DNA of 64,000 bases from NCBI GenBank assembly GCA_012522805.1, contig JAAYJS010000025.1, positions 1 to 64,000 of the forward strand. The letters are read 5' to 3'. Below the pieces are notes generated by a model that saw only the letters and a list, made by a program, of their open reading frames with translations, had not been told where the DNA came from and did no database searches. Positions 1-9,417 of this stretch are shown piece after piece. The DNA is from Eubacteriaceae bacterium (GTDB lineage: Bacteria > Bacillota > Clostridia > Eubacteriales > Eubacteriaceae). The position numbers and the translations under genes are program-made. Numbering within the stretch: position 1 is the first letter of the stretch; every line of letters begins with the position of its first letter.

Positions 1-20
1 AGCTAAGAAAGTAAATAAAC

Positions 21-731
21 ATGAAAGAATGGGTTCAAAAAGAAAATTTACACCGCCATATTGCTATGATTATGGACGGCAATGGACGATGGGCTAAAAG
101 AAAACGACGCCCCCGCTTATTTGGTCATAGAGCCGGGGTAGAAACCTTTAAAAAAATAGTGCGCATTTGTTCCGATATGGGCATACAGGTGCTCACTGTT
201 TACGCCTTTTCTACAGAGAATTGGAAAAGAAGTGAAGAAGAAGTGTCTGGGCTCATGAGCTTAGCCCTCACTTATTTAAAAAAATATGTGGCTGAACTTC
301 ATGAAAACAATGTGGTTTTAAAAATCATCGGCGATATTTCCAAACTCAATGCCACATTACAGAAAGAGATTCTTCGATCGGAAGCCATGACAGCGCAAAA
401 CACCGGAATGATTTTACAGATTGCCCTTAATTACGGCGGAAGAGAAGAACTGATCAACGCAGTTAAAAATATGATGCTGGATGGATTAAAAGGATCGGAA
501 ATTACTGAGAAAACCCTCAATGGGTATCTCTATACGAAGAATGTTCCGGATCCGGATATGATGATCCGAACAGGTGGGGAAAAACGCTTAAGTAATTTTC
601 TATTATGGCAAAATGCTTATACGGAATTTTTTTTCACCGAAACTTTGTGGCCGGATTTTTCTAAAAAAGAATTGGAAGAGATGATAGAGGCCTACACACA
701 AAGAGAACGGCGTTACGGCGGTATTCAATAA
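21..731 (+). CDS. uppS: Isoprenyl transferase (undecaprenyl diphosphate synthase)
   Basis: This 236-residue cytosolic cis-prenyltransferase adds isopentenyl units to farnesyl diphosphate to make the C55 lipid carrier used for peptidoglycan and wall polymers. The family's catalytic Asp is D19 in the N-terminal motif MIMDGNGRWAKRK, and the C-terminal substrate-binding block is recognisable (RTGGEKRLSNFLLWQ, then a TEFFF stretch). Length is normal for the family (about 230-250). The usual block begins RTSGE, so Gly replaces Ser here, a mild variation. It is 9 bp upstream of cdsA and heads the run uppS-cdsA-rseP-ispG-polC; frr normally lies upstream, outside the window. The ribosome site before the ATG is weak, which suggests coupling to an upstream gene. 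Confidence 0.96.
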   Translation: MKEWVQKENLHRHIAMIMDGNGRWAKRKRRPRLFGHRAGVETFKKIVRICSDMGIQVLTVYAFSTENWKRSEEEVSGLMSLALTYLKKYVAELHENNVVLKIIGDISKLNATLQKEILRSEAMTAQNTGMILQIALNYGGREELINAVKNMMLDGLKGSEITEKTLNGYLYTKNVPDPDMMIRTGGEKRLSNFLLWQNAYTEFFFTETLWPDFSKKELEEMIEAYTQRERRYGGIQ

Positions 732-740
732 GGAGGACCT

Positions 741-1550
741 ATGGCAAAGAGAATCATCACGGCAATTGTGGGGATACCGGTTCTATTCGGTGCCTTTTAT
801 TTAGGTGGTTATTTTTCTCTAGCAGTCTGTGCATTTTTAATTAGTTTCGGACTGATTGAATACACCCAAGCTGTCAATCATTTGATGGAAGACACACCGA
901 TCCAACCACTTGTCATGGTGGCGATGGGGTGGATTATTTTAATGTTTGCGAAATTCGATTATTACTCCTTGATGACGATCTTTATGGCATTATTTTTAAC
1001 GACGATGATCGCAGAGGTGCTGTTGTATCAAAAGCGATCCATTGCTCGTCCGGCTTTAGTGCTCTTCGGTTTATTTTATATACCGACCTTACTTTCTTTG
1101 TTGATTGTCTTTGAAACCTTGGACAAAGGGCAATATTATTTTTGGTTGGTTTTCGTCATTTGTTATACAACGGATACGGCTGCCTATTTTATCGGAAAAA
1201 AATTTGGAAAAAGAAAATTGGCGCAAAGCATCAGTCCAAATAAAACCGTAGCCGGTGCCATCGGTGGCATCGTTTTTTGCGCCCTATTCACCATTTTATA
1301 TGGACTAATACTCAACCGTTATTTTCAAGTCACCTTACCTTGGGGTGTTTATCTGGCAGTGGGAATCATAGGTTCGCTCATTGCCCAGATGGGGGATTTA
1401 TTAGCCTCTTTACTAAAGCGCGAAGCCAATATTAAGGATTACGGTTATATTATTTATGGACATGGAGGGGTTCTGGATCGCTTCGATAGTATCATTGCGG
1501 TGCTACCCTTTTTATACATCGTTTATGTGCTGACCAATGGTTGGGCATAG
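741..1550 (+). CDS. cdsA: Phosphatidate cytidylyltransferase
   Basis: This 269-residue integral membrane enzyme makes CDP-diacylglycerol from phosphatidate and CTP, the branch point for phosphatidylglycerol and cardiolipin. Several hydrophobic segments span most of the protein. The C-terminal third carries the CDP-synthase signature: SPNKTVAGAIGG, then GDLLASLLKREANIKDYG and HGGVLDRFDS with its Asp residues. Length is typical. The ATG follows an AGGAGG site. The stop codon overlaps the ribosome site of rseP. In Bacillus and many clostridia dxr sits between cdsA and rseP; here there is no room for it. Confidence 0.95.
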   Translation: MAKRIITAIVGIPVLFGAFYLGGYFSLAVCAFLISFGLIEYTQAVNHLMEDTPIQPLVMVAMGWIILMFAKFDYYSLMTIFMALFLTTMIAEVLLYQKRSIARPALVLFGLFYIPTLLSLLIVFETLDKGQYYFWLVFVICYTTDTAAYFIGKKFGKRKLAQSISPNKTVAGAIGGIVFCALFTILYGLILNRYFQVTLPWGVYLAVGIIGSLIAQMGDLLASLLKREANIKDYGYIIYGHGGVLDRFDSIIAVLPFLYIVYVLTNGWA

Positions 1551-1559
1551 GAGGTCATG

Positions 1560-2324
1560 ATGGCGGTTCTCTTAACCTTAGCGATACTCTCTATTCTTGT
1601 CATCGTGCACGAATGGGGACACTATATCGTTTCAAAAAAAATTGGGGTAGCAGTAGAAGAGTTTTCAATTGGATTGGGTCCAACCTTATACACCAACCAA
1701 GGTAAAGAGACCCTGTTCTCAATACGCGCTTTACCCATCGGTGGTTTTTGTCGCCTTCGAGGCGAGGCGGAGGATACGGAAGAACAGGCATCCTTCGACT
1801 CGAAGGATCCAACCGCTTTTGTCAACCGCACAAAATTAGAGCGTTTTTTAATACTGCTGGCGGGTTCCGGAATGAATTTTATTTTTGGAATAATTTGCCT
1901 GACGATTTTAGGTATTTATAAGGATCGCGCCTTGGTAAGCGGTGTTCAATACGGGTTAACCGTAGCTGTTCATATTGTCGTAACGACTTTTCAAGGGTTA
2001 GCCATGCTCATTACCGGTACTGCAGGCTTAAACGATGTGGCGGGACCTATCGGCATGGTACAGCTTGTTTCTGAAGTTACAACCTATGGGTGGCCCAACA
2101 CCGTATTCTTTATGGCCTTGCTCTCCATTAACTTGGGTATCTTAAATTTATTCCCTTTCCCGGCCTTGGATGGTGGTCAAATTTTAATCATCGCCATAGA
2201 AAAGATTATCGGAAAAGACTTGCCTCAGGACAAGGTTGGCTATATCAATTTAATCGGTATGCTGCTGTTACTGAGTTTGGCAGTCCTTGTAGCGATCAAC
2301 GATATTAGACGGATGATGGGTTAA
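1560..2324 (+). CDS. rseP: Site-2 protease RseP/RasP, short form without PDZ domain
   Basis: This is an M50-family intramembrane zinc metalloprotease that would cleave anti-sigma factors or signal peptides within the membrane. The zinc motif HEWGH is in the first membrane helix (about residues 17-21) and the third metal ligand lies in the NLFPFPALDGGQ segment near residue 204. The protein is only 254 residues, against about 340-430 for the family: the conserved segments before and after the PDZ domain are nearly joined around residues 118-130, so the PDZ is absent rather than truncated by a frameshift. An ATG at 1557 is also possible, but AGGAGG at 1549-1554 is better spaced for the ATG at 1560. 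It is translationally close to cdsA and followed by ispG. Confidence 0.88.
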   Translation: MAVLLTLAILSILVIVHEWGHYIVSKKIGVAVEEFSIGLGPTLYTNQGKETLFSIRALPIGGFCRLRGEAEDTEEQASFDSKDPTAFVNRTKLERFLILLAGSGMNFIFGIICLTILGIYKDRALVSGVQYGLTVAVHIVVTTFQGLAMLITGTAGLNDVAGPIGMVQLVSEVTTYGWPNTVFFMALLSINLGILNLFPFPALDGGQILIIAIEKIIGKDLPQDKVGYINLIGMLLLLSLAVLVAINDIRRMMG

Positions 2325-2362
2325 ACCCTTGCTTGGGAAGAACGTGCACGTGAGAGAAGAAA

Positions 2363-3442
2363 ATGAGAAAACCTACAAAATTAGTACAAATTGGTAAAAT
2401 GAGCATCGGTGCCAATCAACCCATCGCTATTCAGTCCATGACCAACGTACCCACTGCTCATGTAGCAGAAACCGTAAATCAAATCAAACAATTGACAACA
2501 GCAGGTTGCGATATCGTACGCGTTGCCGTACCCAATCGAGAAGCGGCATCTGCCATTCAAGACATTGTTTCCCAAATAGAAATTCCCATTGTAGGGGATA
2601 TTCATTTTGATTATCGCTTGGCCATTGAAGCTATGAAAAACGGCGTGGATAAAATACGCATTAATCCCGGCAATATCGGCTCTCAACGCAAAGTGGAGGA
2701 AGTTGTTGCGGTTGCAAAGGATCGAAATATCCCGATACGTATCGGCATTAACAGCGGATCCTTAGAAAAGGACATCTTAGAAAAATATGGCAAGCCCTCC
2801 GCTGAAGCCATGATAGAAAGTGCTCAAAGACACATCGCTTATTTGGAAGCCTGCAATTATGACAACATTGTCATTTCTTTAAAGGCCTCTTCCGTGATGC
2901 GAACCATCAAAGCTTACGAATTGTTTTCCAACCTTTACGACTATCCTCTGCATTTAGGAGTTACAGAAGCAGGGTTACCCCGGACCGCTACGGTTAAATC
3001 GGCATTGGGAATGGGTGCCTTATTGCTACAGGGTATCGGCGACACTCTGCGCGTATCGATTACAGGTAACCCCTTAGAAGAAATTTACGTTGCCAGCGAT
3101 ATTTTACAAGCTCTATGCTTGGAAAATCCAAATAAACCCAAAATACAATTCATCTCTTGCCCCACTTGTGGGCGCACGGAAATCGATTTAGAGGGCATCG
3201 CACAGACCATTTATGATAGAATCAAGGACATTCGAAAACCCTTAACGGTTGCTGTCATGGGCTGCGTTGTCAACGGACCTGGAGAGGCTAGGGAAGCGGA
3301 CATTGGCGTAGCCGGTGGCAAAGATAAAGGCGTTATTTTTAAAAAAGGTGAAATTGTGGGCACCGTCGCGGCGGATAAAATTGTTGACACCATTGTAGAA
3401 GAAGTGTTGCATTACGAGGATACCGATGAACAACCTGTCTAA
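2363..3442 (+). CDS. ispG: 4-hydroxy-3-methylbut-2-enyl diphosphate synthase
   Basis: This 359-residue iron-sulfur enzyme catalyses the penultimate step of the MEP isoprenoid pathway, reducing MEcPP to HMBPP. An N-terminal TIM-barrel domain is followed by the reductase domain with the 4Fe-4S ligands C266 and C269 (SCPTCGRTEID) and C301, plus E308 in MGCVVNGPGEA, which is the fourth ligand in known structures. Length matches the short bacterial form (about 350-370). The ribosome site is a weak GAGAGA run. Its last 17 bp overlap the start of polC. Presence of this gene implies a MEP pathway, although dxr and dxs are missing from their usual neighbours in this window. Confidence 0.96.
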   Translation: MRKPTKLVQIGKMSIGANQPIAIQSMTNVPTAHVAETVNQIKQLTTAGCDIVRVAVPNREAASAIQDIVSQIEIPIVGDIHFDYRLAIEAMKNGVDKIRINPGNIGSQRKVEEVVAVAKDRNIPIRIGINSGSLEKDILEKYGKPSAEAMIESAQRHIAYLEACNYDNIVISLKASSVMRTIKAYELFSNLYDYPLHLGVTEAGLPRTATVKSALGMGALLLQGIGDTLRVSITGNPLEEIYVASDILQALCLENPNKPKIQFISCPTCGRTEIDLEGIAQTIYDRIKDIRKPLTVAVMGCVVNGPGEAREADIGVAGGKDKGVIFKKGEIVGTVAADKIVDTIVEEVLHYEDTDEQPV

Positions 3443-6400
3443 AAGAAGAAAAGCTTTCCGTCATGTTCTAGAAGAACACCGACTTCAGTTGGACTATATC
3501 AACTATAAAGACAATGGAAATTGTATGGAAATAGCTGTCAAAACTTACGAGAACAGCACACATCAAAAGATCGAAAAAGCTTTTGAATCCATTTTCGATT
3601 ATATCGACGATTTGCAATTAGTCATCTCAGCAGAAGAACCTGTAGCAGCGAACTTCACCCGAGAAAAAATCGAGGAATTGCAAAGTCGGACCAGTGAGAC
3701 AGAGTGTAAAATTCAAAATGAAATGCTTGCGGAAAAAATGGCAAGCATTCAAGCCAGCATCATCAAACAACAAAAAACAACAAAAAGTCGAGGTTTTTCC
3801 CATCATGCCGGTGGTACACTTTATGGTAAAATTGTGCTTTCAGAGACTAAAAGTTTGGGCGATATCATTTACAAAGAAGGAATAACGGCTCAAGAATCGA
3901 AAGTTAGAGTTGCGGGTGTGGTTCGCGATATTGACATGCGCCCAATGCCCAGTGGAAAATCCGTACTGATTCGTTTTTCTATCCAAGACCGATCCGGTGC
4001 TGTGAGTTGCAAAGCATTTATACCCAAAAAAAACTTTGAGAAATTAGAGGACGCACTGATAGAAGGTGCATTTTTTGACGCGGAAGGTACCTTTGAATAC
4101 GATGCTTACGACAAAGAGATTCTGTTAAGCTTATCGGGCTTGCGTTGCGCTGAAGAGAAAACCAGAAGGGATGAGGCAGAACTTAAAAGAGTGGAGCTGC
4201 ACCTCCACAGTCAGTACTCCGCTATGGACGGCATTGCCAAGGTAAAAGATATCATTGCTCAGGCAAAGGCCTTCGGTCACGACAGCATCGGTATTACGGA
4301 TCACGGTGTTTTACAGGCTTACCCGGAAATGATGGCTTTGGGTAAGGCCAACGGCATCAAAGTCCTCTATGGTGTAGAGGCCTATATGATCGATGATTGT
4401 CAAAATATCGTCACCGGTCATCAGGATGCAGATTTTGATGACGAATTTATATTTTTTGATTTAGAAACGACGGGACTTATCGCCGGACGCGATAAGATTA
4501 TAGAAATTGCAGCAGTCAAAATGCGCAATCGTCAAATCGTAGATACTCTGTCCCATTTAGTCAAAATAAAGGGCAATATACCGCCACGCATCACCCGATT
4601 AACCGGCATCACCAATACGATGCTGGAAAAAGACGGTATCGACGAAGCCTTGGCCTTAAAAAACTTCGTGGATTTTGCAGGAGATGCCATTTTAGTTGCC
4701 CACAATGCGGAGTTCGATATGAGTTTTCTGCGGATCGCATTGGCCAAAAATCACATCCTAGCGGATTACACCTATGTGGACACGTTGCAATTATCCAGAG
4801 CTGTATTGACCAATATCAGCAGACATAACTTAAAGAGGTTGGCCTCTTATTTTAAAGTTGATATGGGCGACCATCACAGGGCTTTAGACGATTCGGTATG
4901 CTCAACCAAAATATTAATCAATTTATTGAATTTGTCAGAGAAACGCGGTGCCGTGCGCATCTCTGAGCTGAACGCATTGATGAATATGGAGCAATATATC
5001 AAGTACGCTAGGCCTTACCATATAATTCTATATGCTCAGAATGCTAAGGGTTTGAAAGCATTATACCAATTGGTTTCACAAACCCATACCGAATATTTTT
5101 ACAGAAATCCCAGAATGTTTCGCTCGATGATTCAGGCCCATAGAGAAAATTTGATCGTGGGTTCCGCTTGCGAGTCCGGAGAGGTGTTTAAGGCAGTTCT
5201 GAATCATTTCTCGGAAGAGCGATTAAAAGAAATCGTGGCATTCTACGATTATTTAGAAGTACAACCACTTGGAAACAACGCCTTCTTATTGGAAGATATG
5301 TTGGACCACCAAGAGGAATTGATTGAAATCAACAAAAAAATCATCGCTTTAGGGGACACTTACAACAAACCCGTGGTTGCCACGGGGGACGTTCACTTTG
5401 TGCACCCGGAGGACGCTTTTTTTAGAGAGATCATCCAAACCGGACAAAAGTATAAAGATGCACACCTACAACCGCCTTTGTATTATAGAAGCACCGAAGA
5501 AATGTTGAATGAATTTCACTACATAGAGAGTGAAAAAGCCTACGAAATTGTTGTGACCAATACGCGTAAAATTGCAGATCTTATTGAACCGATCGATCCC
5601 ATTCCACAGGGGGTTTTCCCGCCGATCATCAAAGGTTCGGACAAAGAAATCAAGGAGATGGTTTATGCGAAAGCCCACGAACTCTATGGCGCAACCTTGC
5701 CCAAAATTGTAGCGGAGCGCATTGAAAAAGAACTGACCTCCATTATCGGCAACGGTTATTCGGTTTTGTATCTGATCGCTCAAAAATTGGTGGCACGTTC
5801 AGTAGAAGACGGGTATTTGGTTGGATCTCGCGGATCTGTGGGGTCATCTTTAGTGGCGATGCTATGTGGCATTACGGAGGTCAACTCTCTTCCGCCTCAT
5901 TATGTGTGTCCCCAATGCCATCATTTTGAAGCTTACGATTCCACTCAAGTGGGGGTTGGACCGGATATGGCCGACAAGAATTGTCCCGATTGTCAGCATC
6001 TTTTAATCAAAGACGGCTTTGATATTCCCTTTGAAACATTTTTAGGCTTCGAAGGTGATAAAGAACCGGATATCGATCTCAACTTTTCCGGTGAATATCA
6101 AGGACAAGCACATGCTTACACGGAAACCCTCTTCGGTAAAGACAATGTTTTTCGTGCAGGGACCATATCGACGGTAGCGGACAATACCGCATTCGGTTAC
6201 GTTAAAAACTATTTTGAAGATAAGGGTATCGATGTGCCCAAGGCCGAGGAAGAACGGCTAAAGGTCGGTTGTACAGGCGTTAAGCGTACGACGGGCCAAC
6301 ACCCCGGGGGCATCATTGTCGTGCCGAAAACAAAGGATATACACGATTTTACACCGATCCAATACCCGGCGGATGACAAAAACAGTCAGACGTATACCAC

Positions 6401-7508
6401 CCATTTCGACTATCATTCCATAGAGGGACGCTTGCTGAAGCTGGATATCTTAGGTCATGACGATCCCACCATGCTGAGAATGTTGGAAGATTTGACGGGT
6501 GTCGATCCACAAAGCATCGCCTTAGACGATACAAAGGTTTTAAGCCTGTTTACAGGGACCGAAGCCTTAAATTTTGTCAATGAAGGGTTCGAAATCCCCT
6601 TGGGTATCTGCGGTATTCCGGAGTTTGGCACCGGCTTTGTTAGAGAAATGGTCATGGATACCAAACCCAACACCTTTGCGGACTTAATACGCATATCCGG
6701 ATTGTCCCATGGAACAGATGTATGGACCAACAATGCCCAAAATTTGGTGCGTCAAAAAGTAGCAACGATCCGGGAAGTCATTTGTACCCGGGACGATATC
6801 ATGATCGGTTTGATCGCTATGGGTTTGGAACCCATCAAGGCCTTTACCATCATGGAAAAGGTGCGAAAGGGTAGGGGTTTGACCGAGGAAGAAGAAAAAG
6901 CGATGCGGGAAAATGCCGTACCGGGATGGTATATCGATTCTTGTAAAAAAATCAAATACATGTTTCCAAAAGCCCATGCAGCTGCCTATGTCACCATGGC
7001 TTTTCGTATCGCATACTACAAGGTTTATCATCCCTTGGCTTACTATGCCACCTATTTTTCTGTACGTGCAAAGGAATTTGATATCGAAAAAATGACCCAC
7101 GGTATCGATCATATTCGGGCATCCATGCAAGCAATCGAAGAAATTCCTAAGAAAATGCGTTCACCGAAGGAAAATTCTTTGTACCAAAGTTTGGAGATTG
7201 CCCTTGAGATGGCCTGTAGAGGTTATGACTTTTGGAATGTGGATGTTTACAAATCCCATAATAATGACTTCCAGATCATTGACAACGGGTTACGTCCTCC
7301 CTTAAATACGGTAGATGGTTTGGGAGATACGGTTGCAAAGGCAATTTGTGAAGAGCGCCGAATCAAACCCTTTATATCTAAGGAGGACTTGCAGAAACGC
7401 GCTAAGGTAAATCGAAGTTCCATGGAGAAACTCGAAAAACTAGGTGCTTTAAAATCCTTACCGGCTTCCAACCAAGTATCATTTTTAGAATTGGGATCCC
7501 TATGCTGA
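3426..7508 (+). CDS. polC: DNA polymerase III alpha subunit, Gram-positive PolC type
   Basis: This 1360-residue protein is the main replicative DNA polymerase with built-in proofreading. Order of domains: an N-terminal region, an OB fold (about 150-230), the first part of the PHP domain starting with RVELHLHS near residue 255, an inserted DnaQ-type 3'-5' exonuclease (FFDLETTGL near 341, then VAHNAEFD and HHRALDD), the rest of PHP, a zinc-binding finger (CPQC near 828 and CPDC near 853), and the polymerase palm with the catalytic aspartates of PDIDLNF near 880. It is slightly shorter than B. subtilis PolC (about 1437), mostly at the N terminus. The ATG lies inside ispG behind a GAGGAT site, so translation is probably coupled. 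It overlaps the next gene by 7 bp. Confidence 0.97.
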   Translation: MNNLSKRRKAFRHVLEEHRLQLDYINYKDNGNCMEIAVKTYENSTHQKIEKAFESIFDYIDDLQLVISAEEPVAANFTREKIEELQSRTSETECKIQNEMLAEKMASIQASIIKQQKTTKSRGFSHHAGGTLYGKIVLSETKSLGDIIYKEGITAQESKVRVAGVVRDIDMRPMPSGKSVLIRFSIQDRSGAVSCKAFIPKKNFEKLEDALIEGAFFDAEGTFEYDAYDKEILLSLSGLRCAEEKTRRDEAELKRVELHLHSQYSAMDGIAKVKDIIAQAKAFGHDSIGITDHGVLQAYPEMMALGKANGIKVLYGVEAYMIDDCQNIVTGHQDADFDDEFIFFDLETTGLIAGRDKIIEIAAVKMRNRQIVDTLSHLVKIKGNIPPRITRLTGITNTMLEKDGIDEALALKNFVDFAGDAILVAHNAEFDMSFLRIALAKNHILADYTYVDTLQLSRAVLTNISRHNLKRLASYFKVDMGDHHRALDDSVCSTKILINLLNLSEKRGAVRISELNALMNMEQYIKYARPYHIILYAQNAKGLKALYQLVSQTHTEYFYRNPRMFRSMIQAHRENLIVGSACESGEVFKAVLNHFSEERLKEIVAFYDYLEVQPLGNNAFLLEDMLDHQEELIEINKKIIALGDTYNKPVVATGDVHFVHPEDAFFREIIQTGQKYKDAHLQPPLYYRSTEEMLNEFHYIESEKAYEIVVTNTRKIADLIEPIDPIPQGVFPPIIKGSDKEIKEMVYAKAHELYGATLPKIVAERIEKELTSIIGNGYSVLYLIAQKLVARSVEDGYLVGSRGSVGSSLVAMLCGITEVNSLPPHYVCPQCHHFEAYDSTQVGVGPDMADKNCPDCQHLLIKDGFDIPFETFLGFEGDKEPDIDLNFSGEYQGQAHAYTETLFGKDNVFRAGTISTVADNTAFGYVKNYFEDKGIDVPKAEEERLKVGCTGVKRTTGQHPGGIIVVPKTKDIHDFTPIQYPADDKNSQTYTTHFDYHSIEGRLLKLDILGHDDPTMLRMLEDLTGVDPQSIALDDTKVLSLFTGTEALNFVNEGFEIPLGICGIPEFGTGFVREMVMDTKPNTFADLIRISGLSHGTDVWTNNAQNLVRQKVATIREVICTRDDIMIGLIAMGLEPIKAFTIMEKVRKGRGLTEEEEKAMRENAVPGWYIDSCKKIKYMFPKAHAAAYVTMAFRIAYYKVYHPLAYYATYFSVRAKEFDIEKMTHGIDHIRASMQAIEEIPKKMRSPKENSLYQSLEIALEMACRGYDFWNVDVYKSHNNDFQIIDNGLRPPLNTVDGLGDTVAKAICEERRIKPFISKEDLQKRAKVNRSSMEKLEKLGALKSLPASNQVSFLELGSLC

Positions 7509-8713
7509 AAAAAATAAGAAACACTCTGATAACCATCCTACTGCTGTTTGTTTTTTTATCCTACCGATTTTTTGCAGGGAACGCGGATACGCAAATGCGC
7601 TGGATACGCAACGCCGTCTATATGATGGAGTCATCCAAGACAGCGGTAACGCGGTTATTGAACATCAAACCGAAACATATAGAAAAAAAGGCAATCAAAA
7701 TAGTCGATGATAAAAACGCTTATTTTGAATCGCCTTATACCGGTTTTGCCTCCCTAGATGAAGAGGAGCAACAAGTTTTTCTTTTCATTGCTGATAAATT
7801 GCAAAATTTAGAAAACGAAATGGATCTCGGACCCTACGATATCGATGTGCAACGCGTCATTAAAGTATGCCAAGCCTTGGATGTTGATTTTCCGGAGTTT
7901 TTCTGGTACAACGCCTACAGCTACACCTATAATGAGATGAGCGGTAAAATAAAAAAACTGACATTTACATTGAACTACGATCTAGAAGATATTGCTAGAA
8001 GGCAAGAAGCGATGGATCGTTATGTTGATACAGTTGTTGGGCAAATCACTGAAGATATGGACGATTACACGCGTGTTAAATTGGTACACGACTATATCAT
8101 CCGCAATACCGACTATGATTTAGAAACTCCGGACAATCAAAATATTTGTTCTGTGATGATAGAAGGTAAGGGTGTTTGTGCCGGTTATGCAAAGACCATG
8201 ACGCTGATACTGAATAAAGCCGGCGTTGTCACCAGCACGGTATATGGCAAGACCATAACGGGTGAGCCCCATGCTTGGAACTTGGTAAAAGTTGAGGATC
8301 AATACTATTATATAGATACCACTTGGGACGATCCCAACTATGTCGGAGAAGAGGCATTCAGGGATTTTGTGGACTACACTTACTTCAATATTACCACCGA
8401 CGATTTGCTACGATCCCACGAAATCGACGAAAGTCTGATATCGTACGATGTTTATAAAAACACGGAAAACTCTTACTACACTAGAGAAAACCGTTTTTAT
8501 GATTTGAATATAGAAGGAGAAACCGGTCGCTTTATTGATGATGTCTATCATGCGATGCTCAACCAAGAGCAATTTTCAAATTATAAATTCGCAGATCTGG
8601 CACAAAGAGACCAAGCCTTGGAGTCGCTGCGAAGATCCTACGTCCTGTATTCGACTTCCATTCGCTATATTCAAAACGAATACCAGCCAACCTTGGTCAT
8701 TTCTTTTTATTAA
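7502..8713 (+). CDS. Transglutaminase-like domain protein, membrane-anchored or secreted
   Basis: This 403-residue protein has a hydrophobic N-terminal segment (about residues 8-25) that should act as a signal peptide or anchor, so the rest is extracytoplasmic. A transglutaminase-like core contains the expected Cys-His-Asp triad: C226 in GKGVCAGYAKTM, H257 in GEPHAWNLV and D272 in IDTTWDDP. Such bacterial domains act as cysteine peptidases or transferases on the envelope; the substrate here cannot be read from sequence. Its start overlaps the end of polC by 7 bp, so it is cotranscribed with the replication polymerase. A strong promoter for infC begins only 5 bp after its stop, and no terminator separates them. 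Confidence 0.85.
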   Translation: MLKKIRNTLITILLLFVFLSYRFFAGNADTQMRWIRNAVYMMESSKTAVTRLLNIKPKHIEKKAIKIVDDKNAYFESPYTGFASLDEEEQQVFLFIADKLQNLENEMDLGPYDIDVQRVIKVCQALDVDFPEFFWYNAYSYTYNEMSGKIKKLTFTLNYDLEDIARRQEAMDRYVDTVVGQITEDMDDYTRVKLVHDYIIRNTDYDLETPDNQNICSVMIEGKGVCAGYAKTMTLILNKAGVVTSTVYGKTITGEPHAWNLVKVEDQYYYIDTTWDDPNYVGEEAFRDFVDYTYFNITTDDLLRSHEIDESLISYDVYKNTENSYYTRENRFYDLNIEGETGRFIDDVYHAMLNQEQFSNYKFADLAQRDQALESLRRSYVLYSTSIRYIQNEYQPTLVISFY

Positions 8714-8717
8714 ATAC

Positions 8718-8746
8718 TTGACAAGCCCTCAGGTATCCTATATACT
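8718..8746 (+). promoter_or_regulatory. Sigma-A-type promoter for infC-rpmI-rplT
   Basis: A perfect -35 box TTGACA (8718-8723) is separated by 17 bp from a -10 box TATACT (8741-8746). It starts 5 bp after the preceding stop codon. The predicted transcript start near 8753 gives an untranslated leader of about 140 nt before infC. Confidence 0.85.
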
Positions 8747-8752
8747 ACTATA

Positions 8753-8895
8753 GTATAAACAAAGTAGAGGACTTTCCTTTCACCTTGATTCACTAGGATC
8801 GGGTTAATCATGAGATTTTTTTGTGATGCGGGTAGAGTCTATCTACGCGCATTTTTTAATGTTAAATAATAATAACTATTTATAGGAGGTGTATT
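8753..8895 (+). promoter_or_regulatory. infC leader with transcription attenuator (L20-leader-like)
   Basis: The leader contains an intrinsic terminator: ATGCG-GTAGA (8826-8836, one mismatch) pairs with TCTAC-CGCAT (8842-8852) around a 5-nt loop and runs into a T tract at 8852-8857, about 40 nt before infC. Upstream, TGATT and AATCA flanking 8787-8810 can pair and may form a competing structure. In B. subtilis the leader of this operon binds ribosomal protein L20, which causes premature termination. The position and architecture here match that system, but I identify the family by context, not by alignment. Confidence 0.65.
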
Positions 8896-9417
8896 ATTAT
8901 CGCAAAAGGTTTCCAACATGAAACGAACGAAGCTATAAGGGATCGTGAACTCCGTGTAATTGGTGCAGATGGTAATATGATTGGTGTGATGAGTCGACAA
9001 GAGGCCTTGGATCTTGCTTTTAACAACAACTTAGATTTGGTAAAAGTATCTCCCAATGCAAAACCACCGGTTTGTAAAATTCTTGACTATGGTAAATTCC
9101 GCTATGAAGAAATGCGTCGAGCGAAAGATGCTAAGAAAAACCAAAAGACTGTCGTACTAAAAGAAATTCGTATGTCTGTCAGAGTGGAAGAACACGATAT
9201 TATGGTTAGAGTTCGCAATTGCATCAAGTTTTTGGAGCAAGGAAATCGCGTAAAAGTCAGTATCCGTTTTAGAGGAAGAGAAATGGCCTACACAGAGCAG
9301 GGTCGAGAAGTGCTCTTGGACTTTGCAAAACGGGTCGAAGACTATGGTAGTATTGAAAAACCACCAAGAATGGAAGGTAGAAACATGGCCATGTTTCTAA
9401 CGCCAAATAAAAGTTGA
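8896..9417 (+). CDS. infC: Translation initiation factor IF-3 (non-AUG start)
   Basis: IF-3 binds the 30S subunit and checks start codon and initiator tRNA. The usual N-terminal sequence IAKGFQ...EAIRDRELRVIGADG is encoded upstream of the first in-frame ATG (8977), so the real start must be one of three consecutive codons ATT (8893), ATT (8896) or ATC (8899). AGGAGG at 8884-8889 leaves 6 nt to the ATT at 8896, the best spacing. The product is then 173 residues, normal for IF-3, whereas an ATG start would delete 27 conserved residues. A rare AUU-type start is known for infC in E. coli and Bacillus and lets IF-3 repress its own translation. It is the first gene of the operon with rpmI and rplT. 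Confidence 0.95.
   Translation: MIAKGFQHETNEAIRDRELRVIGADGNMIGVMSRQEALDLAFNNNLDLVKVSPNAKPPVCKILDYGKFRYEEMRRAKDAKKNQKTVVLKEIRMSVRVEEHDIMVRVRNCIKFLEQGNRVKVSIRFRGREMAYTEQGREVLLDFAKRVEDYGSIEKPPRMEGRNMAMFLTPNKS

Follow-up and report, generated by a model that had tools for sequence, protein, structure and literature searches.

Group I of the site-2 proteases (S2Ps), as set out by Kinch in 2006, is defined by at least one PDZ domain between the transmembrane helices TMH2 and TMH3, according to passages of PMC10202637 and PMC7728848. RasP of Bacillus subtilis has one PDZ domain and RseP of Escherichia coli has two (passages of PMC7728848). A size filter formed by the PDZ domains has been proposed for both enzymes, and the stepwise course of regulated intramembrane proteolysis is attributed to filtering by the PDZ region of RseP and, by suggestion, that of RasP (PMC10202637 and PMC7728848, both in part). 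Disruption of the E. coli PDZ region allows RseP to cut RseA without site-1 cleavage (excerpts of PMC10202637). E. coli RseP without helix H1 fails to support growth, and H1 is important for stability and function (excerpts of PMC7728848). The neighbours of rseP are given as cdsA, uppS, dxr, and frr in passages of PMC6411480. Ecs, a partner of RasP, occurs in aerobic and facultative Firmicutes according to excerpts of PMC2996298.

The window is a 64,000-nucleotide stretch of contig JAAYJS010000025.1 (Eubacteriaceae bacterium, GCA_012522805.1) and carries an rseP/rasP-type gene whose product has no PDZ domain (Table 1). Two in-frame ATGs are present at the start of the gene; position 1560 is the second, and the open reading frame runs from 1557. 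The surrounding gene order is uppS-cdsA-rseP-ispG-polC, where uppS (by motif), ispG, and polC are names that we presume. This neighbourhood is similar to the published one, and the gene is in the conserved place claimed for it in the original prediction. A dxr gene often separates cdsA from rseP; in the window it is missing at that place (1550-1557). A transglutaminase-core protein (7502-8713) with an N-terminal hydrophobic segment, as judged by eye, directly follows the polC-like gene. A repeat scan of window positions 1-9000 gave nothing relevant.

Table 1. Genes around the PDZ-less S2P gene and features of its product (coordinates are window positions; residues are numbered from the ATG at 1557).
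Feature	Coordinates	Strand	Basis
uppS-like gene, upstream	21..731	+	sequence; name presumed by motif
cdsA-like gene (CTP_transf_1), directly upstream of rseP	741..1550	+	Pfam
rseP/rasP-type site-2 protease gene, PDZ-less, 255 aa	1557..2324	+	ORF, profile matches, phmmer, model
HEWGH zinc-binding/catalytic motif, residues 18-22, in TM1	1608..1622	+	alignment
Membrane-reentrant beta-hairpin, residues 33-67	1653..1757	+	strands 33-48 and 53-67 in model
Acidic loop, beta-hairpin to TM2, residues 68-92	1758..1832	+	alignment, model
TM2, residues 93-121	1833..1919	+	model
Junction KDRA, four residues 122-125	1920..1931	+	phmmer, alignment, model
Helix H1 of PCT region, residues 126-153, retained	1932..2015	+	model; phmmer register with E. 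coli H1
Helix H2 region, helix residues 164-176, GPIG segment at start, retained	2046..2084	+	alignment, model
NLFPFPALDGG, second zinc-ligand motif, residues 197-207	2145..2177	+	alignment
ispG-like gene, downstream of rseP	2363..3442	+	sequence; name presumed
polC-like gene, downstream	3426..7508	+	sequence; name presumed

The window protein is an otherwise complete RseP/RasP-type S2P in which only the PDZ cassette is absent. It scores 220.9 bits against TIGR00054, the NCBIfam RseP equivalog model (cut-off 147.55), a cut-off that is also exceeded by the proteins of loci L054, L095, L103, and L169. In the alignment of 17 window-family proteins with 13 other S2Ps, the missing part is the PDZ cassette. 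Solved RseP chains match in two pieces; for example, query residues 4-117 and 139-254 correspond to Aquifex residues 3-108 and 313-428. At the position of the KDRA junction, PDZ-bearing relatives hold one or two PDZ domains. E. coli H1 (323-349) maps to window residues 126-152 when the phmmer pair 143/340 is extended without gaps. Searches with Pfam at E<=1 found neither a PDZ nor a CBS domain in the window protein.

The AlphaFold2 model, built from the window protein together with 16 proteins of related loci, has a mean pLDDT of 89.5 and a pTM of 0.85. Residues H18, E19, G21, and H22 are invariant in this set of proteins. In addition to the elements in Table 1, it contains TM1 (2-29), TM3 (179-197), a helix at 205-218, and TM4 (224-254), and the protein ends with this last membrane helix. 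The acidic loop, probably cytoplasmic by analogy with RseP topology, has a mean pLDDT of 56 at residues 71-80. TM2 is followed after four residues by the H1 helix, which leaves no room for a PDZ domain. A hidden or divergent PDZ is thus ruled out by the length of the protein, the lack of any PDZ match at E<=1, and the model. The original prediction of an RseP/RasP protease without a PDZ domain therefore stands: residues 60-130, where a divergent domain was to be sought, contain none.

In structure comparisons, the model is closest to the RasP model 9a6w (Z 32.1, rmsd 1.6 A, 253 residues aligned), followed by E. coli RseP 7w6x (Z 29.1, rmsd 2.0 A, 245 aligned) and Aquifex RseP 9j82 (Z 28.6, rmsd 1.6 A, 246 aligned). 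Matches to Kangiella RseP are weaker, with Z scores of 20.7-21.6 (about 21-22) over 189-194 residues, and SpoIVFB and MjS2P give Z scores of 9.2-10.9. The window protein shares with RasP and E. coli RseP the operon position, the HExxH and NxxPxPxxDG motifs, the reentrant beta-hairpin, four main membrane helices, and the H1/H2 region. It differs in having no PDZ domain and in its length, 255 residues against 422-447 for the comparison targets. SpoIVFB and MjS2P, members of Group III, likewise have the zinc core and no PDZ domain. Unlike these, the window protein retains H1 and H2 and is encoded in the rseP operon, and the CBS domain that follows the membrane core in Group III (SpoIVFB) is absent from it. 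As in other members of peptidase M50/S2P, the zinc motifs lie in membrane helices and the PF02163 match is full (203.8 bits, profile 3-221 of 221). Group I is defined by its PDZ, and here only four residues lie between TM2 and H1. The PCT region with H1 is nevertheless present before TM3, as a modelled helix at 126-153 in the E. coli register, and the protein falls among PDZ-bearing RseP in the tree. It is a PDZ-less variant of Group I, where it belongs by sequence model, tree, and H1 region.

The genome of the window (G000) is 97.8% complete in 47 contigs, and within this assembly no second RseP-type protease was found. PF02163 detects one other M50 protein, a 221-residue protein with an HEVAH motif that is encoded beside a scpA-like gene (G000:C6, L073 6307-6972). 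It scores 51.8 bits over profile positions 160-216 only and, unlike the window protein, misses the RseP equivalog model. The suggestion that the gene encodes the main S2P of the cell is upheld to the extent that the genome yielded no other RseP-type S2P. Across the 40 family genomes, the search turned up no additional RseP-like copy, only pieces of one gene (in G039, on two contigs). A separate PDZ protein had also been proposed as something to look for. None adjoins rseP; the genome has three PDZ_6 matches elsewhere, in a CtpA-like S41 protease, an HtrA-like protease, and a DUF512 radical-SAM protein.

The absence of the PDZ is an inherited trait of the whole window's family. This family (f1) is made up of 40 genomes in nine genera, 39 of which have a match to the protein. 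A single continuous match runs across the junction in 35 genomes, and the matches in G027 (a 276-aa frame) and G039 are also continuous, so that the PDZ is absent in 37 of the 40 genomes and in all nine genera. The junction is unreadable in the other three (no match in G037, the C-terminal part only in G021, an assembly gap in G038). Both zinc motifs are present in all 30 f1 loci L003-L032, a count made without motif preselection. The same architecture in 37 genomes excludes chance or assembly error. In the four sister families of the order (f2-f5), each of the 27 genomes gives a two-piece match, with both pieces on one contig in 25 and on different contigs in G051 and G062. Nine sister-family sequences were aligned, and all have a PDZ-sized insert, with 258-279 residues from HExxH to NxxP versus 179-196 in f1. 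Pfam found PDZ in all four of the nine that were scanned: L064 and L069 exceed the PDZ_6 cut-off, L066 exceeds the PDZ cut-off only, and L071 is under every PDZ cut-off (PDZ_6 E 9e-5).

PDZ-less forms recur outside this family. A survey of the class (393 genomes, completeness floor 90%) gave 20 matches at E<=1e-30: 12 in f1, five continuous matches in other families, and three N-terminal halves in f18, where the proteins have 349 residues. The five are G148 (f6) and G205, G221, G326, and G408 (f53), and in G326 the match holds only from residue 35 on; the N-terminal part of this gene lies outside the open frame. A survey of 398 genomes of the phylum at the same threshold gave no match besides the window's own. 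Divergent cases such as G505 (best E 1.2e-23) are missed at this threshold, so that counts outside the fully read families are lower bounds, and MAG quality varies among the genomes compared. Family f53 (59 genomes) has 21 continuous PDZ-less matches, 34 in separated pieces, two broken-frame PDZ-less genes, and two genomes without a match. The two PDZ-less copies with broken reading frames are in G470 and G486 (L170, L171). Family f6 (60 genomes) has two PDZ-less forms (G148, G505), 54 in separated pieces, one fragment (G493), and three genomes without a match. The PDZ-less RseP of G505 (L169 1257-2117), the second in f6, has a long hairpin-TM2 loop like that of the window's family. In a distant phylum, Candidatus Gracilibacteria, L033 (2803-3675) encodes a 291-aa S2P with a short segment at the PDZ position and no obvious PDZ sequence in the alignment, possibly another independent loss.

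By these matches, both PDZ states occur within three genera of f53: g108 (G205 and G188), g135 (G221 and G488), and g253 (G457 and G482). The protein of G221 (245 aa, no PDZ match) is sister to that of G488 (421 aa, two PDZ stretches) with a support of 100/97, and G457 and G482 are not sisters in the tree. Of the 22 PDZ-bearing f53 RseP proteins extracted (L108-L130), 20 are 416-425 aa long. One of them, L126, was scanned and contains two PDZ stretches, so that its PDZ-less sister differs by both.

The tree was built from 80 cores and 242 columns with the PDZ columns excluded, and states were assigned by length (PDZ-less below 300 aa). Pfam matched PDZ in all six of the 43 PDZ rows on which it was run and in none of the four PDZ-less rows of 37 (window, L054, L095, L103). 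Rows were preselected by zinc motifs, which makes the motif counts for tree rows circular (HExxH in 37/37, the second motif in 36/37). Loci with a failed motif search (L080, L085, L088, L105, L107, L110, L143) were omitted. So were L074-L079 and L081-L083, most of which duplicate other loci, although for G033 and G109 they were the sole source of a row. Family f1 is represented by 17 chosen rows, with its further loci omitted. Among the omitted f53 rows, G450 and G477 have HExxH with NLLPFVPLDGG, G481 begins within the first motif at a contig end, and the frame of G326 is without its N-terminal part.

PDZ-less forms arose more than once, and they occur in f1 and in two other families of the class (f53 and f6). 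Eight changes of PDZ state are needed on this tree and seven on a quick tree. The AU test rejects a single origin for the PDZ-less forms as a whole (p=7.6e-5) and a single clade for the f53 PDZ-less rows (p=0.015); it does not reject a single clade for the two f6 rows (p=0.196). The f1 PDZ-less clade (96/81) is sister to PDZ-bearing f2-f5, joined at 94/68. PDZ-bearing forms surround the PDZ-less ones of f1 and f6, which reads directly as loss. The f53 backbone is weak, three PDZ-less rows branch early, and the tree does not settle the direction of change there. We prefer loss over regain in f53, since regain requires PDZ domains to re-enter the same site.

In each PDZ-less row shown in the alignment, H1 is present. 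The PDZ region of E. coli RseP is reportedly dispensable, by the title of a 2004 paper cited in PMC10202637. The combination of a lost PDZ and a kept H1 matches the E. coli experiments, in that a regulator is discarded and a necessary part is retained. It weighs against H1 being a mere PDZ adaptor and in favour of H1 as a substrate exosite or a core structural element.

Several candidate correlates of PDZ loss were rejected. The hairpin-TM2 acidic loop is longer in f1 than in most PDZ-bearing rows of f2-f5 (43-60 versus 35-54 residues, p=6e-4) but has 35 residues in both f53 states. After PDZ loss, H1 in f53 shows greater hydrophobicity (p=0.006) and lower charge (p=0.0003); f1 shows neither shift (p=0.87 and 0.17). 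A single motif search of loci L054-L072 and L103 found a dxr motif in L069 and L103 only. A link with the missing dxr fails on both sides: PDZ-bearing L064-L068, L071, and L072 (f2, f3, f5) also have no dxr there, and L103 has the motif beside a PDZ-less gene.

The window protein is probably a catalytically complete Group I S2P from which the PDZ cassette was removed, so that TM2 runs nearly straight into H1; the genome showed no other of the RseP type, and its substrates would be selected by the core. Most likely it is active, with the membrane core, H1, and prior trimming selecting substrates in place of a PDZ filter. Such an enzyme would cleave single-pass membrane segments as RseP does, including signal-peptide remnants, small membrane proteins, and site-1-trimmed anti-sigma factors. 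Choice among them may depend on the beta-hairpin and H1/H2 of the core, on helix stability, and on prior trimming. The protease would have no size filter and would be constitutively open to trimmed or small membrane proteins. A bolder version, which we hold only tentatively and consider somewhat unlikely, is that f1, and other families of the class with an independently lost PDZ, possess a one-step intramembrane protease whose direct substrates are small membrane proteins or anti-sigma factors of full length. Control would then have moved to the substrate, exerted through the stability of its TM helix, through the H1 exosite, through trimming at site 1, or through binding of the sigma factor.

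The PDZ could also have become dispensable once regulated anti-sigma substrates had disappeared from the lineage, with the protease kept for constitutive housekeeping. Proteins with zf-HC2 are rarer in f1 (4/40 genomes) than in the four sister families (18/27), with a Fisher p of 2e-6 that ignores kinship, f1 being one lineage. In the mixed-state control f53, they occur in 10 of 21 PDZ-less and 19 of 34 PDZ-bearing genomes (p=0.59; G166, G469, G470, and G486 are left out, having no clear state). A general link between the two losses is thus rejected, being strong in f1 and null in f53. RsgI_N proteins occur in 3/40 f1 and 6/27 sister-family genomes, and neither zf-HC2 nor RsgI_N proteins were found in the window's genome. 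Sigma70_r4_2 matches are present in all 67 genomes of the order (40/40 in f1), with four weak ones in the window's genome. Around sigma or zf-HC2 matches in 14 f1 loci, six sigma-gene neighbours were scanned with Pfam, yielding two single-TM DUF4179 proteins, one RsgI_M protein, a methyltransferase (L155), and two without a match (L157, L159). ECF-like sigma genes lie beside the DUF4179 and RsgI_M proteins (L156 1063-2145, L158 2268-3347, L163 825-2063), which are candidate substrates. Candidate substrates with large outer domains therefore persist in the PDZ-less family, although none was identified in the window's genome, and a loss of substrates is an unlikely cause.

Gating in trans, whether by an HtrA-like or CtpA-like PDZ protease or by an inhibitor like BofA/SpoIVFA, is more doubtful still. 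The genome's HtrA-like and CtpA-like PDZ proteins each have a hydrophobic N-terminal stretch by eye, and BofA/SpoIVFA gate SpoIVFB, which belongs to another S2P group and likewise has no PDZ (passages of PMC10202637). Against this, proteases of the HtrA and CtpA types are abundant among bacteria (passages of PMC6411480), and no extra gene adjoins rseP. Bacteriocins that dock on RseP, such as enterocin K1, could have selected for shedding of the PDZ, and repeated losses would fit escape from a receptor. In the window's family, however, the loss is old and common to all nine genera, and this reading is very improbable. Broken frames in the PDZ-less copies of G470 and G486, and the N-terminal part of G326 outside the open frame, might suggest a truncated product, a pseudogene, or an assembly error. 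This is virtually excluded for the window, where the frame is open, the motifs are intact, and 37 of 40 family genomes are alike.

In the open-access PubMed Central literature, as represented by titles, starts of abstracts, or passages, no description of a PDZ-less RseP was found. At about 240-275 aa, the PDZ-less enzymes are compact structural targets, and the absence of the PDZ predicts insensitivity to EntK1-type RseP-docking bacteriocins. They amount to a natural deletion experiment on the PDZ, which is described as a gatekeeper against large proteins at the active site. PDZ-less Group I enzymes recur and can have a PDZ-bearing sister from their own genus, which allows the functions of the PDZ and H1 to be tested without engineered deletions. 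If these proteases do act in one step, the PDZ would be an optional cassette, and the core with H1 would be the minimal regulated S2P.
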